NCBI GenBank assembly: GCA_026126305.1
Contig: JAHCJI010000008.1
Location: 1 to 64,000 of the forward strand
From: Phycisphaeraceae bacterium
GTDB lineage: Bacteria; Planctomycetota; Phycisphaerae; Phycisphaerales; UBA1924
Length of the DNA: 64,000 bases
Direction of reading: 5' to 3'
The notes beneath the pieces were generated by a model that was not told the DNA's origin, did not search any database, and was given only the letters and a program-made list of their open reading frames with translations. A program made the translations under genes and the position numbers. Below are positions 20,371-27,700 of the stretch, one piece after another (the first letter of the stretch is position 1; the number at the start of each line of letters is the position of its first letter).

Positions 20371-21642
20371 TCAGGCAAGTGCCTTGCCGGTCACCTCCGC
20401 GATCGCCGCCGCTGCTCTCGCGCAGTCGGCGAAGGTGTTGTAGAGCGGCACGGGCGCCAGGCGCACGATGTCGGGCTCGCGGAAGTCGGCCACCACGCCC
20501 TGGGCCTGGAGCGCATCGCGCACCGCGCGGGCGCGCTCGCCGAAGGCAATCGAGAGCTGGCACCCGCGTTGGGCCGGGTCGCTCGGCGTGATGATGCGTG
20601 CCCCCGGCGCGACGCCCAGCACCGCCCGCTCGAGGAAGCCGGTCAGTTTCAGGCTCTTCTCGCGCAGGGCCGCCATGCCCACGCGGTCGAAGATTTCCAG
20701 CGACGCCGCCAGCGGGGCCATCGCCAGGATGGGCGGGTTGGAAAGCTGCCAGCCGTCGGCACCCGGCCTGGGCACGAAGCCGCTCTCCATCTTGAAACGC
20801 GTGGCCGGGTCGTTGCCCCACCAGCCGGCCAGGCGGGGGATGTCGGGATTGTCGCCGTGGCGTTCGTGGACGAAGCAGCCGGCGATCGCCCCCGGGCCGG
20901 CGTTGCAGTACTTGTACCCGCACCACACGGCAAAGTCGGCGTCGCAGTCGTGCAGTTGCAGCGGCACGTTGCCCGCGGCGTGGGCGCAATCCCAGCCCAC
21001 CATCGCCCCCACGCCGTGCCCCGCGGCGGTGATGGCGGGCATGTCGAACCACTGCCCGGTGCGATACTGCACAGCCGCGAGCATCACCAGCGCCAGCGTG
21101 TCGCCCACGCGCTCGATGGACCCGACAATGTCCTCGGTGCGCAGCGTGTCCTCGCCCGCGCGCGGTGCCAGGCGGATCGTGTGCTCGCGCGGGTCCAGCC
21201 CGCGATGGGCCAGGTGGCTCTCCACCGCGTAGTCATCGCTGGGAAAGAGCGCGTCCTCGACCAGGATCTTCGTGCGGATGCCACGCGGCTGGTAAAAGCT
21301 GGCCAGCATCAGGTGCAGGTTGGCCGTCAGGCCGTTCATCATGACCACCTCGCCCGGCCTTGCCCCCACCAATCGCGCGCCCGTCTCGCGGAAGCGCTCG
21401 TGGTAGGCGAACCATGGGTTTGCGCCGTGCAGGTGGGCGTCGACGGCCAGCGTGGCCCAGTCGTCCAGTTCCTGCTTCACCGCGTCGCGGGCCGCGTGAG
21501 GCATGAGCCCCAGCGAGTTGCCCGTGAAGTAGGCCACTTCCTTGCCGTTCGTGTCGCGGGGGATCGCAAACAGCGAACGCTCGCCGGCCAGCGGGTCGGC
21601 GGCGTCGAGAGCCAGTGCCTCGTCAAGCAGTGGCGTCTTCAC
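20371..21642 (-). CDS. kynU: Kynureninase
   Basis: PLP enzyme of 423 aa that hydrolyses kynurenine or 3-hydroxykynurenine to (3-hydroxy)anthranilate and alanine. Signatures are 'YFTGNSLGLMP', 'GWDCAHAAGNVPLQLHD' and the PLP lysine in 'WCGYKYCNAGPGA' (Lys244). Start GTG at 21642 overlaps the TGA of the upstream decarboxylase gene (GTGA), so the two are translationally coupled. The enzyme feeds 3-hydroxyanthranilate toward the ACMS decarboxylase, through a 3,4-dioxygenase that is not in this window. Confidence 0.95.
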   Translation of the reverse strand: MKTPLLDEALALDAADPLAGERSLFAIPRDTNGKEVAYFTGNSLGLMPHAARDAVKQELDDWATLAVDAHLHGANPWFAYHERFRETGARLVGARPGEVVMMNGLTANLHLMLASFYQPRGIRTKILVEDALFPSDDYAVESHLAHRGLDPREHTIRLAPRAGEDTLRTEDIVGSIERVGDTLALVMLAAVQYRTGQWFDMPAITAAGHGVGAMVGWDCAHAAGNVPLQLHDCDADFAVWCGYKYCNAGPGAIAGCFVHERHGDNPDIPRLAGWWGNDPATRFKMESGFVPRPGADGWQLSNPPILAMAPLAASLEIFDRVGMAALREKSLKLTGFLERAVLGVAPGARIITPSDPAQRGCQLSIAFGERARAVRDALQAQGVVADFREPDIVRLAPVPLYNTFADCARAAAAIAEVTGKALA

Positions 21643-22781
21643 TTGGACGCCTCCGAGGGTTCCTTGGGGAAGCTGGCCGAACGCTCTCGGGCGGCCTTCT
21701 GCTCCTCGACCAGGCCCGGGAAGGCGTTGGCTTCCAGGCCCAGGAACTCGAGCGCCGAGCCGCTGAGCAACTGCCGCTTGGTCTTGTCGGTCAGGTCGTA
21801 CATCGAGTCGATCATCGCCCCGGGCATGGCCTCGCCCAGCGGGAACGGATAATCGCTGCCCAGGGCCACGCGCCGCTCGTCCATCATGGCGATGAGATAC
21901 CGCAGCGCGTTGCGGCTGTAGACCGCCGAATCGACCCAGAACCTGGCGGGCCTTCCATAGTCGGCCAGGTAACTCCAGGGGTTACTCGCGCAATCCACCG
22001 CCACGATGTCCGGCCGGCTGTTGTACCCGTGCTCGATGCGGCCGATGGTGTAGGGGAACGAGCCCCCCCCGTGCGCGAAGCACACCCGCAGGTTGGGGAA
22101 GCGGTCGAACACGCCGCCGAAGATCATCGCGCACACCGCCCGGGCCGTCTCGGCGGGCATGCCCACCAGCCAGGGCAGCCAGTACTTGCCCATCTGGTCG
22201 CGGCCCATCATGTCCCACGGATGCACCAGGATGCTCGCCCCCAGTTGCTCGCACGCGGCGAACACGTCCAGCAGCGCCGGCTCCCACAGGTTCCAGTCGG
22301 GCGCGCCGGGCCTTTCGATGTGGCTGCCGATCTGGATGCCGCGCATGCCCAGGTCGCCCATGCAGCGCTCCAGTTCCTTGATGGCCAGCGCGGGGTCCTG
22401 CATCGGCAGCGTGCCCAGGGCGATGAACCGCTCGGGGTGCTGGCGGCAGCGCTCGGCCAGGTCGTCGTTGAGCAGCCGCGCCACTTCGAGCGTGTGCTCG
22501 GGTTTCGCCCAATAGCCGAACATCACCGGCACGGTCGAGACCACCTGCACCTGCACGTTGTTCAGTTCCATGTCGCGCAGGCGGGCATCGGCGTGCAGGC
22601 AGTTGGGCTTCACGTCGCGGAAGTGCTTCCCGTCGATGGTCAGGCGCGAGCCGCCCGCGAATGGGCCCGGATCGCTGCCGGAGATGGGCGCCATGTGAAC
22701 CCACCCGCCATACCCAAACTTGGCCGCAAAGTCTGGAAGTGTTGGGGGCAACATGTGCGTATGCAGGTCGATCTTGAACAT
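21639..22781 (-). CDS. 2-Amino-3-carboxymuconate-6-semialdehyde decarboxylase (ACMSD)
   Basis: Amidohydrolase-superfamily enzyme of 380 aa. The start at 22781 places 'MFKIDLHTHMLPP' first, with the metal-binding HxH. Other family stretches are 'AVYSRNALRYLIAMMD', 'CFAHGGGSFPYTIGRIEHG' and 'ALGSDYPFPLGE' (metal-binding aspartate). ACMSD removes CO2 from ACMS, diverting the kynurenine pathway from quinolinate/NAD synthesis to degradation. The coupling with kynU supports this over other members of the family, such as gamma-resorcylate decarboxylases. Confidence 0.85.
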   Translation of the reverse strand: MFKIDLHTHMLPPTLPDFAAKFGYGGWVHMAPISGSDPGPFAGGSRLTIDGKHFRDVKPNCLHADARLRDMELNNVQVQVVSTVPVMFGYWAKPEHTLEVARLLNDDLAERCRQHPERFIALGTLPMQDPALAIKELERCMGDLGMRGIQIGSHIERPGAPDWNLWEPALLDVFAACEQLGASILVHPWDMMGRDQMGKYWLPWLVGMPAETARAVCAMIFGGVFDRFPNLRVCFAHGGGSFPYTIGRIEHGYNSRPDIVAVDCASNPWSYLADYGRPARFWVDSAVYSRNALRYLIAMMDERRVALGSDYPFPLGEAMPGAMIDSMYDLTDKTKRQLLSGSALEFLGLEANAFPGLVEEQKAARERSASFPKEPSEASK

Positions 22782-22975
22782 GGGGCGGGAGTGTAGGGGC
22801 GGGCATCGGGCATCGGGCTGCGCAGGACGTCCGTGCCACCGAACTCGGTCCTCCGAAATCGGTGTCTTCGGATCGCACCCAAGGCGGCAGACACCAACCT
22901 CCAAAGACGCAGGCCCATGGCCTTTCACCACGACTCACCACCACCCCCACCCCCACGCCCCCCGATCGATCCACG

Positions 22976-23207
22976 CCAAGCCCGGAATGGAGCGCACCAA
23001 GCCTGGGATGGAGCAAACCAAGCCCGGGACAGAGCAAACCAAACCTGGGACAGAGCATCCCGGGCCCCGGGAAGGAGCATCCCAGGCCTGGGATGGAGCA
23101 AACCAAGCCCGGGATGGAGCAAACCAAGCCCGGGAAGGAGCAAACCAGGCCCGGGACAGAGCATCCCGAGCCCCGGGAAGGAGCAAACCAGGTCTGGGAT
23201 GGAGCAT
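22976..23207. repeat. 21-bp tandem minisatellite, about 11 units
   Basis: Consecutive units of 21 bp (one may be 22) built on 'ccaagcccgggatggagc' plus AAA or ATC, with 1-5 changes per unit. Because the period is a multiple of three, both strands stay open in several frames, encoding 7-residue repeats such as MEQTKPG. The intergenic stretch 22782-23290 contains nothing else recognisable. The array lies directly upstream of the truncated RHS gene. It has no spacers, so it is not CRISPR. Confidence 0.9.
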
Positions 23208-23290
23208 CCCGAGGCCAAGGATATGGTCTCTGGACGGGGTGGAACGGCTCTGGCGCGGCGTGGGAGGGGTTTGCGCTCTGTGCTCGGATT

Positions 23291-24535
23291 ATGGGCGGGG
23301 CTAAGAAGAGCGAGGCCGTCCTGTTCGACATGAAGTGGACCGTCGACGACCTGAACCGCGTGGTGCAGGCCGAGCGGGGGGAGTTGGGTTCGGGTTCGAT
23401 CGCGACCCTGGCCGAGGACGAGAACTGGACGCTGACGACGGTGGGCGGCTGGGCGCTGCACACGCTCGACGGAGACGTGGACGGCGACGACCGCTGGCTG
23501 CATCTCGTCTACGACGACCGGTGGCGCGCCGTCGCCGAGCACTGGGACGACGAGGCCAAGCCGCACGCGATCTACGTGCACCATGCTGGCGGCGTGGCGG
23601 GCAGCGGCTCGTACATCGACGAACTCGCCTTCCGCGAGCGGGACGCCGACAACGACACGAACCAGGTGCTCGAGGAGCGCCGCTACTACGCGCAGAACTG
23701 GCGCAAGGACGTCGTGGCGATGCTGACCCACGACGGGGCGATGGTCGAGCAGGTGCGATATTCGAGTTACGGCGTGCCGTTCGGCTTGCCCGCGGGCGAC
23801 ACCGATTCGGATGGCGACTTCGACCTCGACGACGTGAACGCGATCACGGGTTCGTACGATGTCAGGAAGGACGCGAACCTCGACGGCGTCGTGGACGTCT
23901 TCGACATCATCCACGCGGGCAACATGGCCGGCGGCGGCGGCTTCGTGACCACGGGTCGGGACGTGTTAGGAAGCGTTGCCAACGCGAACCACTTCGGCTA
24001 CGGTGTGTATCTGCGTGATCCGGCGGTGCCGCAGTGGCACGTGCGGCATCGGGTGCTCAGAAGTAATATCGGGAGGTGGTTGACCAGGGATCCGGCGGGG
24101 TATGTGGATGGATTGAGTTTGTATGAGTATGTGGGCTCATCTGCCTTCAGCTACTACGACCCGTATGGGCTTGGCCGCGTCCGAAACTGGTTGGAAAATT
24201 GGTGGAATAATACCAAAGAAGGTTGGGAAGGTGTCAAGGAGTACTGGCTGGACCCCTCTCCTAGTCAGCCATTGCCGACATATGCTAAGGGATGCTTTGT
24301 CTTAAGCGGGGCTTGTTTTGGTGCGGCTACAAAGGGGAAAGGGGCTCGTATTCTAGAGGTTTGTAGTATTGGGATGGGTGCAAATCAGGTGTTTGGGGGT
24401 GGCACCGGCTACCCGTTGATTGATGAAGCGTTGAATTCGTTCTTGCTTGGCGTCGGTGGTGGCCGAGTTGGTCGGGAAGGAGTGGACTACCTTGTTAGAC
24501 CTCGACCTCGGGAGGTGCCCTTCAACGTACGGTGA
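23291..24535 (+). CDS. RHS-repeat-associated core (tip) protein, 5'-truncated, with unknown C-terminal domain
   Basis: Reading frame of 414 aa from ATG at 23291; the frame stays open upstream through the minisatellite, so the true start is unclear. The core is the RHS tip: '[19 protein letters not shown]', '[19 protein letters not shown]' and 'RSNIGRWLTRDPAGYVDGLSLYEYV', ending in 'YYDPYGL'. A dockerin-like calcium module ('DTDSDGDFDLDD', 'DANLDGVVDVFDI') is inserted before the core end. The many upstream YD/RHS repeats of a full protein are missing. After the core come ~120 residues in less GC-rich DNA ending 'RPREVPFNVR', of unknown function: the position of a polymorphic toxin. Could be a relic or a displaced cassette. 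Confidence 0.75.
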   Translation: MGGAKKSEAVLFDMKWTVDDLNRVVQAERGELGSGSIATLAEDENWTLTTVGGWALHTLDGDVDGDDRWLHLVYDDRWRAVAEHWDDEAKPHAIYVHHAGGVAGSGSYIDELAFRERDADNDTNQVLEERRYYAQNWRKDVVAMLTHDGAMVEQVRYSSYGVPFGLPAGDTDSDGDFDLDDVNAITGSYDVRKDANLDGVVDVFDIIHAGNMAGGGGFVTTGRDVLGSVANANHFGYGVYLRDPAVPQWHVRHRVLRSNIGRWLTRDPAGYVDGLSLYEYVGSSAFSYYDPYGLGRVRNWLENWWNNTKEGWEGVKEYWLDPSPSQPLPTYAKGCFVLSGACFGAATKGKGARILEVCSIGMGANQVFGGGTGYPLIDEALNSFLLGVGGGRVGREGVDYLVRPRPREVPFNVR

Positions 24536-24556
24536 ATCTATGCGGGGAGATGTTTT

Positions 24557-25114
24557 ATGACTGTCAAGTTCAGTCGCGCAGTCGTGAGCTTTAATGTGTA
24601 TCGTTTGGTTTGGATTCTTGTTGTGCTCCCGATCCCGGTGATTCATCAGTTATTGAATGGTTTTCATCGTTATTTGGTTGTATCGACAGCAGTTATTGTC
24701 GGAATCTGCATTGCTGTTGTCTGCTGCGTGTTTGCAATCGCTATACGCAGGGTTATGAATCGACGGGCAACGTTGGTGGCTGCCGAAGTGATTCCAACTT
24801 GGCTGAGCATCTGGACTTATTTACAGTTTGTTGCATTCTTGTGTGCTCCCGTGGTGGAGTGGTCATACTACCTCCTAGCTCTTTCGATGTGCAGCACTGC
24901 CGCGTTCCTAGGATGGGTGATGTGGTTATTAGTATGCAGTAGACGCTTGAGTTGGCAAGATTCTGAGACGAACGCACCTCCTCACGTAGCCCCCGAGTCA
25001 CATCTGCCAGAGGGGACCAAGCCAGCACATCTGTGGGATACGGGCGTGTTGCTCGTTCACGATCGAAATTTCGACATCAACAATCTACGATCAGATTCTT
25101 GTTCTTCAGCGTGA
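24557..25114 (+). CDS. Low-GC four-helix membrane protein, candidate immunity protein
   Basis: 185-aa protein beginning 21 bases after the RHS frame, with GGGGAG before the ATG. Four hydrophobic segments are visible (about residues 14-30, 41-64, 83-103 and 107-127) followed by a ~55-residue hydrophilic tail. No family recognised. Base composition is far lower in GC than the rest of the window and codon use differs, a sign of recent transfer. A small membrane protein directly behind an RHS C-terminal domain is the usual place for the cognate immunity protein; that role is inference only. Confidence 0.55.
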   Translation: MTVKFSRAVVSFNVYRLVWILVVLPIPVIHQLLNGFHRYLVVSTAVIVGICIAVVCCVFAIAIRRVMNRRATLVAAEVIPTWLSIWTYLQFVAFLCAPVVEWSYYLLALSMCSTAAFLGWVMWLLVCSRRLSWQDSETNAPPHVAPESHLPEGTKPAHLWDTGVLLVHDRNFDINNLRSDSCSSA

Positions 25115-25182: not shown

Positions 25183-25302
25183 TCAATATCTTACCTTAAA
25201 CGTCGGCGAATCCTCCGGCCTTGACCGTCTCCGATCGTACAGCCTGGCCGTGGCGATGGACGCATGCCCGAGCCACATCTGGACGTCCTCGATGTCGGCA
25301 AG
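25183..25302 (-). pseudogene. 3' remnant of a tyrosine recombinase (phage-type integrase) gene
   Basis: On the minus strand this encodes '[19 protein letters not shown]', then [20 protein letters not shown] and a stop. This is the C terminus of a tyrosine recombinase: LGH carries the conserved histidine and the tyrosine of RLYDRR is the nucleophile. Everything upstream is lost: homology stops where the second RHS-tip copy begins at 25301. It is therefore inactive, but it documents a mobile element at this site. Confidence 0.8.
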
Positions 25303-25530
25303 GTGCTCGAGGAACGCCGCTACTACGCGCAGAACTGGCGCAAGGACGTGGTGACGATGCTGACCCACGACGGCGCGCTGGTCGAGCAGGTGCGATATTC
25401 GAGTTACGGCGTGCCGTTTGGTCTACCCGCGGGCGACACTGACTCGGACGGCGACTTCGACCTCGACGGCCAGCTGACCATCTTCGACTTCCTGGCCTTC
25501 CAGACGGCGTTCGCGGCGGGGTGCGATTGA
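25301..25530 (+). pseudogene. Second RHS-tip copy fused to a GC-type dockerin end
   Basis: Bases 25301-25468 repeat 23664-23831 without gaps and with about 12 differences in 168 bp (mostly third positions). At the calcium-loop codons 'DSDGDFDLDG' the sequence switches in frame to a dockerin end, 'QLTIFDFLAFQTAFAAGC', and stops. The fragment has no RHS repeats, no convincing start and abuts an integrase remnant, so it is best seen as a displaced 3' end produced by recombination in the Asp/Gly-rich calcium-loop coding sequence. An in-frame ATG at 25264 would make an 88-aa product, but nothing supports its translation. Confidence 0.75.
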
Positions 25531-25537
25531 TAAGTTT

Positions 25538-25567
25538 GCAGATGGCAGATAGCAGTTGAAGAGGCGG
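25538..25567. repeat. Partial copy of the 'AGATAGC' repeat behind a dockerin end
   Basis: The sequence 'gcagatggcagatagcag' followed by TTGAAGAGGCGG matches one arm of the palindrome at 1719-1787, again just after a dockerin stop codon (7 bases here). Only one arm is present, so no long hairpin can form. Confidence 0.65.
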
Positions 25568-26176
25568 AACATCCCCTTTGGCAGCCAGGACAACGGCCCG
25601 GTGGGCAACATCGAGCCGGCGAACCCCGAAGACCAGAAGGCCGCGGGCTGAAGCCGGGGCTTCGAGTACCGGGTACCGCGAATCGACACGGGCCGCCTCT
25701 GCGGCCCTGTTTCGTGCGCTGGCTACTGGTCACACGGCTCGCGTCCCGCGGCCCGCGCGAACCCGTTCTGGAAGGTCAGGAAGTCGAACAGGGCCAGGAC
25801 GCCGCCGCGGCGTGCAAGATTTGGACGGGGCTTGTTCGAGGCAACGCGAGATCCCGCTGGATCGAATCGATCACGTTATCATCCGATCAACACCATCGAT
25901 GCGAAACCGAACAGGGGTGCGCCGCGTTTGTTTGTTGGGTGCCATCGAGCCAAGGCCCAGGAGCACGGCGAGCACGGTAATCACGGCGAGCATGGGAGGT
26001 ATCAGATGCGGTTCGGTCGCACGCTCGAAGCCCTCGCGGGGCTCGCCCTCGTGCCCATGGGCGGGGCGGAAGAAGGCCGCAACTGACCGGCTTGGATGGG
26101 GCGGCCCGCCGGTGGGCTCGCCCCCGCATCGCCGCCCCGCCAGAACCAACCCCGGGCCCGCCCAGACGGAGGGACC
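25568..26176. other. Gene-poor stretch with gene remnants
   Basis: No intact gene recognised over about 600 bp. From 25567 a plus-strand frame reads 'NIPFGSQDNGPVGNIEPAN', then PEDQKAAG and a stop, and looks like the C-terminal end of a lost gene. A minus-strand dockerin remnant lies at 25757-25812. At 26006 a 26-codon frame beginning MRFGRTLEALAGLALV has a good GGGAGG site 6 bases upstream and resembles the start of a signal peptide; it stops at 26086 and may be the beginning of a deleted exported protein. Confidence 0.5.
25757..25812 (-). pseudogene. Degenerate dockerin fragment
   Basis: The minus strand reads 'GVLALFDFLTFQNGFA', an altered copy of the dockerin motif xLTIFDFLAFQNAFA. The calcium-loop residues and the terminal GC are lost, and no open frame extends upstream. 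It is probably the decayed 3' end of another dockerin gene. Confidence 0.6.
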
Positions 26177-27700
26177 ATGCCAGCGAACACCGCCAAACGC
26201 CGACTGATCGTCCTTGTGGCCTTGTGCTGTCTGGCCATGCTCGCCCCATGGGCTCGGGCCCAAGAGGCCTTCCAAGGCCTCGACAACCAGCGGCTGGAGG
26301 CCGACGCGGTGGCCCTGGCCATTTCGGGCGACTATGCCGACGCGTTGGAGCGTTTCGAGGAACTGGCCCGCCGCCAGCCCGATTCGTTCGTGCCGCATTA
26401 TAACATCGCCAGCATGTTGTCGCGCCTGGGCCGCGTCGACGCCGCGCTCAACGCGCTGGACGAGGCCCTGGACCGTGGCCTGGACGATATCGCCCACCTG
26501 CGCAACGACCCGGATCTGGAGGCCATCCGCCAGACCGACCGTTTCATGGCAATCCTCGAAACCTGGCCAGCACGCATGGAGCGCCTGGCTACCCGACGCT
26601 TTGCGGAGTTGAGGCAGCGTTTCGGTGATCGCTACCACGTCGAAGAAGATCCAGTTTTAAGGCTGCGGTTTGCGGTAGGCCTGCCGCGAACCAGCTTCGC
26701 CATGGCCCGGGCCGAGCTGGACATCGTTTCTCGCTGGGCGATGGCCGAGTTGTTCGGCAACCTGCTCGAAGCCGACGAGGACGCCGTCCCATGGGTCGGC
26801 GTGGCCATCCCCACCGACGAAGACTTTGCCCGCTGGGCCCATGGTCGCCACGGCGAGGCGGCGCGGGATTCGTCGCGCCAGATCGCCGGCACCTACGACC
26901 ACGACCGCAAGGAACTGGTGTGCAAGGACCTGGGCGCCACGCTGCGCCACGAGGTCTTCCATGCCTTACACTACCGCAGCCAAAGCCTGGAAGGCCAGCG
27001 GCACGCCATGTGGATCATGGAGGGGCTGGCATCGCTCGTGGAAGACTTCGACCCAACCGAGAACGGCGAGCCCGCGTTCGCGCCATCGTGGCGCACGAAC
27101 ATCACGCGCAAGGCCCTGCGCGCCAACCAGCTCAAGTCCATCGCCGACCTGGCCGCCACGCCCGACCATATCTTCACGGGCACGGCCCCGCTCATGCATT
27201 ACGGCCATGCGCGCACCATCATGCTCTACCTCTTCGCCGCGGGGAAACTGCCCGAGTTCTATCGCCAGTACGTCGACACATGGGCCCATGATCGCACGGG
27301 CGTGCTGGCCCTGGAGCGCACCTTCGACGCGGGCATCACGCAGGTCGAGGCCAGTTTCCGCCGGTGGGTCGAGCGCCTGCCCGTGGCCCCCGAGCAGAAC
27401 CACCCGCCATCGGCCACGCTGGGCATCGACGTGGACGGCGAACGCGGCGAGGGCCTGGCCGTCCTGCGTACCGTGCGCGGCTCACCGGGACGCCTGGCTG
27501 GTTTGCGTCCGCGCGACGTGCTCGTGGCCGTCAATGGGCAGGGCACGCGCGATATCAACGAGCTCTATCGCGTGCTGGGCCGCTACATGCCCGGCGACGT
27601 GGTCATCCTGAGCGTGCGGCGACAGAATGAGATGCTCGAACTGCCCGCCCGCCTGGCCAGCGCACGGGACTTCCAGGTGCTGCCCGCCGATGGTCGGTAA
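26177..27700 (+). CDS. Exported TPR - HExxH metallopeptidase-like - PDZ protein
   Basis: 507-aa protein. The ATG at 26177 has GGAGGG just upstream and opens a signal peptide ('LIVLVALCCLAMLAPWARAQ'). Residues ~38-110 are TPR-like ('ALERFEELARRQPDSFVPHYNIA'). A zinc-binding HEVFH (His258-His262) lies in 'TLRHEVFHALHYRSQ', with 'WIMEGLASLVEDF' behind it, the glutamate position of gluzincin peptidases. Residues ~410-500 are a PDZ domain ('SPGRLAGLRPRDVLVAVNGQ'). A periplasmic or surface protease or scaffold is likely. The substrate is unknown. Confidence 0.75.
   Translation: MPANTAKRRLIVLVALCCLAMLAPWARAQEAFQGLDNQRLEADAVALAISGDYADALERFEELARRQPDSFVPHYNIASMLSRLGRVDAALNALDEALDRGLDDIAHLRNDPDLEAIRQTDRFMAILETWPARMERLATRRFAELRQRFGDRYHVEEDPVLRLRFAVGLPRTSFAMARAELDIVSRWAMAELFGNLLEADEDAVPWVGVAIPTDEDFARWAHGRHGEAARDSSRQIAGTYDHDRKELVCKDLGATLRHEVFHALHYRSQSLEGQRHAMWIMEGLASLVEDFDPTENGEPAFAPSWRTNITRKALRANQLKSIADLAATPDHIFTGTAPLMHYGHARTIMLYLFAAGKLPEFYRQYVDTWAHDRTGVLALERTFDAGITQVEASFRRWVERLPVAPEQNHPPSATLGIDVDGERGEGLAVLRTVRGSPGRLAGLRPRDVLVAVNGQGTRDINELYRVLGRYMPGDVVILSVRRQNEMLELPARLASARDFQVLPADGR

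Follow-up and report, generated by a model that had tools for sequence, protein, structure and literature searches.

Scars of microhomology-mediated end joining and of template switching consist of fragments that are joined at short matches. Displaced ends of RHS genes are known from other bacteria: orphan tips of Salmonella are able to recombine with the main RHS gene (Koskiniemi et al. 2014, PMC3967940), and cassettes of the orphan-module kind have been described for polymorphic toxins in general (PMC3482391), both according to the accessible parts of these papers. The word dockerin does not occur in the accessible text of the latter. Our literature searches returned no paper with the term "GC-type dockerin", and among the papers listed, dockerin, Planctomycetes and Rhs co-occurred in one, on a termite-gut metagenome.

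The window, i.e. the whole stretch of 64,000 nucleotides that was analyzed, lies within a 180-kb contig of a genome of 3.04 Mb in 22 contigs. It holds a 168-bp RHS fragment that runs into the end of a dockerin gene (Table 1). With a probability of roughly 0.7, we regard this feature as a relic of microhomology-mediated joining, by which a piece of an RHS allele would have ended up in a mosaic of gene-end fragments.

Table 1. Positions in the window of the RHS module, the mosaic and their junctions, with the basis of, or a remark on, each.
Feature	Position	Strand	Basis or remark
21-nt tandem repeats	22955-23208	.	just before RHS module
3' part of RHS core, orphan-type tip	23330-24181	+	NCBIfam TIGR03696, 41.7 bits (cut-off 32.5)
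Internal junction, in-frame loss of ~99 codons	23465-23491	+	landmark distance compared with relatives
Reference copy of the 168-bp block	23664-23831	+	repeat finding and base-by-base comparison
Dockerin-like two-loop insert of RHS core	23795-23940	+	profile comparison with GC dockerins
Variable C-terminal tip of RHS module	24182-24532	+	without a match in Pfam or PHROG
AT-rich hydrophobic ORF, putative immunity partner	24557-25114	+	GC ~47-51%, against ~65% around it
Tyrosine recombinase tail, last 40 codons and stop	25183-25305	-	homology; truncated at junction 1
Hybrid open frame, 88 aa	25264-25530	+	starts inside antisense recombinase sequence
RHS fragment (block under study)	25301-25468	+	repeat finding and base-by-base comparison
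Junction 1, 11-nt overlap RHS/recombinase	25302-25312	.	exact-run comparison
Junction 2, calcium loop 1 of RHS / loop 2 of GC dockerin	25449-25468	+	similarity to dockerin donors
GC-type dockerin 3' end with stop	25469-25530	+	profile match, genome DNA matches
GCAGAT-type repeat arm	25533-25577	.	also present past other dockerin stops
Last codons of a ~300-aa gene	25561-25656	+	complete elsewhere in the genome
Junction 3, 7-nt overlap ATCCCCT, repeat/next gene end	25571-25577	.	exact-run comparison
Decayed dockerin fragment, reverse orientation	25747-25810	-	repeat finding, genome DNA matches

Genomic setting and the neighboring RHS module

The genes flanking the locus, one at 21642-22781 to the left of the RHS module and one at 26096-27697 to the right of the mosaic, were both found in six out of six congeners, where they were never adjacent, lying far apart or on different contigs. 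With respect to these two genes, the locus is consequently a synteny break. In the congeners G003-G006, the right-hand gene keeps upstream neighbors that are absent from this place in the window. A candidate that we considered and rejected as the source of the dockerin end was a native dockerin gene beside the metal-hydrolase-like gene at 21642-22781; a dockerin gene was present in three of five congener stretches, with bodies that differ, so that the dockerin end in the window is not an obvious local remnant. Elsewhere in the genome, RHS tips that are closely similar but differ in their C-termini are interrupted by contig ends, namely the starts of C22, C12 and C7 and the end of C2, and the RHS loci of this genome are thus incompletely assembled.

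The module at 23330-25114 holds the 3' end of an RHS core without a gene body, which is the mark of an orphan tip. Its core part maps to residues ~1681-2049 of a relative's 2285-aa RHS frame, i.e. to the last ~370 core residues. The variable tip, for which structure prediction gave a mean pLDDT of 38, is a putative toxin, and the ORF that follows, which had no confident match in Pfam, NCBIfam or PHROG, would from its position be the immunity partner. A comparison of the module with viral contigs found no relative. The tandem repeats in front of it comprise about twelve 21-nt units of the GAGCAAACCAAGCCCGGGA type. Many orphan RHS fragments with different tips were found in this genome.

The module has itself lost a piece. 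Two landmarks in the RHS sequence are spaced 22 aa apart here and 120-123 aa apart in 10 of 10 relatives measured, i.e. those in which both landmarks could be located. The ~99 lost codons lay between two Asp/Gly-rich stretches, and the join itself is Asp/Gly code. As exact repeats shared by these stretches do not exceed 6-10 nt in those relatives, this internal deletion fits short-match joining as well.

The mosaic of gene ends and its outer junctions

From left to right, the mosaic consists of a recombinase tail on the minus strand, the RHS fragment, a dockerin end with the repeat that follows its stop, and the end of another gene. The pieces identified in 25183-25656 are all 3' portions of genes or parts of such portions.

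The RHS fragment and its reference copy in the module align without gaps, with 156 of 168 bases in agreement and 12 differing (93%), in line with the match of about 93% described in an earlier note on this DNA, and in a base-by-base comparison the identity drops off sharply on both flanks. In a whole-genome DNA search the reference copy was the best match by far (E 4.5e-67); since it stands far above every other genomic match, the likeness over 168 bp is not due to chance. Ten of the 12 differences are synonymous and two nonsynonymous, whereas about 75% would be expected to be nonsynonymous under unconstrained change (P 3.8e-5). With differences that are mostly silent, the fragment probably derives from another working RHS allele and not from a local duplicate. 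The word duplicate, used in the earlier note, thus holds for the existence of two similar copies, and probably not for copying on the spot. It is more likely that the two copies descend from two RHS alleles, both under selection, and they would have diverged mainly as coding sequence, in the simplest case as RHS alleles, before one of them turned into a fragment. The fragment has neither an RHS core end nor a toxin tip; it stops in the loop insert, and the dockerin sequence follows.

To the left, the recombinase breaks off precisely where it is joined to the RHS fragment. The remaining tail has an identity of 82.5% to the plasmid XerD of Planctomycetes bacterium Pla133 and of 88% to intact recombinase genes of two congeners (349 and 348 aa), and 148 out of the 274 matching plasmid records cover at least 80% of the query. 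It is homologous to annotated recombinase C-termini and, with 40 codons left, does not include a complete catalytic domain. At junction 1, the run CCTCGAGCACC (11 nt) is common to the window, the RHS sequence and the recombinase genes of both congeners, and is the longest run that the RHS module shares anywhere with either of these genes; 11-nt runs occur at 2.7e-5 and 5.5e-5 of boundaries for the two genes. In congener G005 (L243 9431-10480), the 349-aa recombinase is encoded on the opposite strand to a full-length RHS gene and ~640 bp past it, and a recombinase tail beside an RHS module is therefore an expected neighbor. Another truncated copy of the recombinase was seen in congener G004 (C19:502682).

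To the right, several other dockerin genes of this genome have an end and a repeat similar to those found here. Past the stops of several of its GC-dockerin genes, e.g. in the window and at L163 4363-4462, come heptamer repeats of the GCAGAT type, which have hairpin arms (AAGAGG...CCTCTT), and congeners carry other simple repeats in this place. At junction 3, 7-nt runs occur at 9.8e-4 and 7.0e-4 of boundaries. The gene end beyond it is 97% identical to C22:53268-53354, where the gene is complete, and 90% identical to a related form at C17:157361-157447.

The hybrid frame has no RHS gene body upstream. Its last 32 residues match the NCBIfam profile of the GC-type dockerin (NF041540) with an E-value of 2.5e-4 and 21.4 bits, below the cut-off of 29 bits, over profile positions 36-67 of 67, so the hybrid contains the second half only of the domain. 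As in GC-type dockerins, Gly-Cys is found close to the terminus, after a calcium-loop segment. Over ~25449-25530, DNA identity to those dockerin ends of this genome that match better is 79-92%; among the matches listed, 72 places in the genome match the stretch, nearly all of them its dockerin part. With the hybrid protein as query, there were 129 matches in this genome, 111-120 in each of six congeners and at most 10 in each of 54 other relatives. The in-frame switch to a GC-type dockerin end within Asp/Gly-rich calcium-loop code, likewise reported in the earlier note, is borne out. The frame is open because the paired codons share the same frame, and probably not because a protein is made. 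We consider it extremely improbable that the 88-aa hybrid is a small expressed, anchored and functional protein, as the frame running open across the join might suggest, given that it starts inside antisense recombinase sequence, has half a dockerin domain that scores under the family cut-off, and is without a counterpart among the relatives and the fetched loci. We infer from the sequence that the frame is not expressed and is a dead relic.

An assembly or library chimera, with joins that are absent from the cell, would be another source of such a mosaic. RHS repeats do trouble this assembly, in which several contigs break off within RHS sequence. Such an artifact is nevertheless quite improbable at this place. 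With 12 differences over 168 bases, the two copies are not one collapsed repeat, the region lies well within the 180-kb contig, and overlaps of 5-11 nt are shorter than the k-mers usually employed by assemblers.

Junction 2 and the calcium-loop code

At junction 2, the similarity to the dockerin donors averages 15.4 of 19 bases. Out of 834 RHS positions, this junction was the best-matching one for 25 of the 28 dockerin genes compared, namely those whose ends were returned as loci by the genome-wide DNA search; for the remaining three, 2, 3 and 9 RHS positions match equally well or better. For most dockerin genes the near-match is among the best 1e-5 to 1e-4 of the 19-mer pairs. The exact run left of the junction is 5 nt (CGACG) in 18 donors, 4 nt in two and 1 nt in eight, and an exact overlap of 5 nt is reached by about 1% (~1e-2) of random boundaries. 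The strength of the evidence at junction 2 comes from the longer near-match, not from the 5-nt exact run. By these comparisons, the junction falls exactly where the calcium-loop DNA of RHS and dockerin genes is most alike. It is out of structural register, as RHS loop 1 gives half a loop that is followed by the full loop 2 of the dockerin.

The likeness of RHS and dockerin DNA would have its source in the dockerin-like two-loop insert of the RHS cores. When RHS inserts were compared with GC dockerins, profile to profile (a single run, with 34 distinct RHS inserts against 82 dockerin ends), both loops aligned with a probability of 93.7% and an E-value of 1.9e-7, a result that points to a dockerin-like insert as a feature of the RHS cores of this group. 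In the RHS cores of related Phycisphaerales, the insert follows the last YG hairpin and precedes the GYAGY strand. Literature searches found no paper on a dockerin-like insert of RHS cores.

The position of junction 2 at the best RHS/dockerin match and the alignment of the two profiles across both loops could be taken to mean that RHS and dockerin genes repeatedly recombine at a seam of dockerin-like calcium-loop DNA, where they would exchange their 3' ends. The second Asp/Gly-coded join, at 23465-23491, and three other RHS fragment ends that map within the loop insert point the same way. We find this unlikely on the basis of the breakpoints, the relatives and the dockerin ends. The RHS fragments of this genome were mapped on the 2285-aa RHS frame of a congener, taking breakpoints from tblastn ends (with a precision of perhaps 10 residues) and leaving out contig ends, natural C-termini and three short matches on contig C9. 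Four of 25 breakpoints, this one included, fall in the loop insert, which makes up 10% of the length (P 0.26). In a set of 27, which includes the two ends of the internal deletion, six lie within 6 residues of DxDG code (P 0.25). Breakpoints are thus not enriched at the calcium loops, and junctions 1 and 3 of the mosaic (11 nt and 7 nt) lie outside calcium-loop code.

A cluster of seven of the 25 breakpoints at a single module border (P 0.01) was spotted post hoc. This cluster, together with the many RHS tips with different C-termini in the genome, would be compatible with a store of orphan tips, in which the fragment is a reserve RHS cassette that recombines with a full RHS gene and restores an alternative tip, as orphan RHS tips do in Salmonella according to the accessible part of PMC3967940. 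Such a role is very unlikely for a fragment that lacks both core end and tip and could deliver a dockerin end alone.

No other fusion of RHS and GC-dockerin sequence was found in 60 related genomes, nor, among the matches listed, in 149 genomes of the family, where the window alone reaches the last query residue; five of the widest other family loci, read directly, continue as RHS inserts. The 295 fetched loci that were searched, many of them overlapping, likewise contained none. Concerted evolution of dockerin ends, which would back the swapping of ends, was considered and rejected: where dockerin ends sit on unrelated bodies, their shared residues had a codon identity of 0.720 within this genome (1059 pairs) and of 0.687 between genomes (1792 pairs), a difference that is too small to speak for exchange. 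This comparison covered 82 ends from six genomes, i.e. those fitting a C-terminal pattern in the fetched stretches, not all dockerins.

The seam at junction 2 is real, yet not special to calcium-loop code. The earlier note had proposed that calcium-loop DNA acts as a recombination seam, which is right for the placement of junction 2 and goes too far as a property of such code; the further claim that the locus swaps 3' ends gained no support from the search for other fusions or from the comparison of dockerin ends, which showed little homogenization within the genome. Its suggestion to look for more junctions at DxDxDG code turned up one, the internal join of the module, without any enrichment overall. 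This join is the best support for the wider seam idea.

Origin of the mosaic and comparison with known systems

Each of the three mapped joins falls on an exact match, which is 11 nt long at junction 1, 5 nt at junction 2 (within the near-match) and 7 nt at junction 3; these lengths are estimates, with parent sequences inferred from relatives. Overlaps of this length are reached by 3-6e-5, ~1e-2 and 7-10e-4 of boundaries, respectively. If the mosaic is a relic of microhomology-mediated joining, broken or stalled DNA would have been rejoined at short matches, by microhomology-mediated end joining or by template switching, and in one or several events. The setting would have been a locus already rich in displaced RHS pieces. 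Calcium-loop DNA would have been used at junction 2 because the dockerin-like RHS insert shares Asp/Gly codons with many dockerin genes. Divergence differs by fragment (93% identity for the RHS fragment, 97% for the gene end and 96 of 115 positions to congeners for the recombinase), as would fit one event or several.

Read in this way, the locus is an instance of RHS loci collecting broken gene ends, in which each of three successive joins is explained by a short match. The dockerin-like insert would provide repeated Asp/Gly code that is open to mis-joining with many dockerin genes, and the idea of a dedicated end-swapping seam is tempered by these results. A further-reaching reading, limited to the only genus among those examined whose genomes also have about a hundred GC-dockerin matches each, is that 3' ends are exchanged between RHS and surface-anchored proteins by way of the insert, which would now and then yield anchored RHS proteins, with the fragment as a failed product. 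We hold this to be distinctly improbable.

Among the described systems, orphan rhs-CT/immunity modules, as presented in the accessible parts of PMC3967940 and PMC3482391, resemble the module at 23330-25114, which is a displaced RHS 3' end without a body, followed by a putative toxin tip and a candidate immunity gene. The 168-bp fragment differs from them in that it has no tip or immunity gene, ends in a dockerin, and is joined at a place other than the RHS core end. With GC-type dockerin-anchored proteins (NF041540), the hybrid shares its last 32 residues and the Gly-Cys near the terminus, whereas it has half a domain, a score below the cut-off and no secreted body. The scars of microhomology-mediated joining or template switching differ from this case in that the parents of the mosaic were inferred from relatives, and are matched by it in the mosaic of fragments in both orientations, joined at matches of 5-11 nt.
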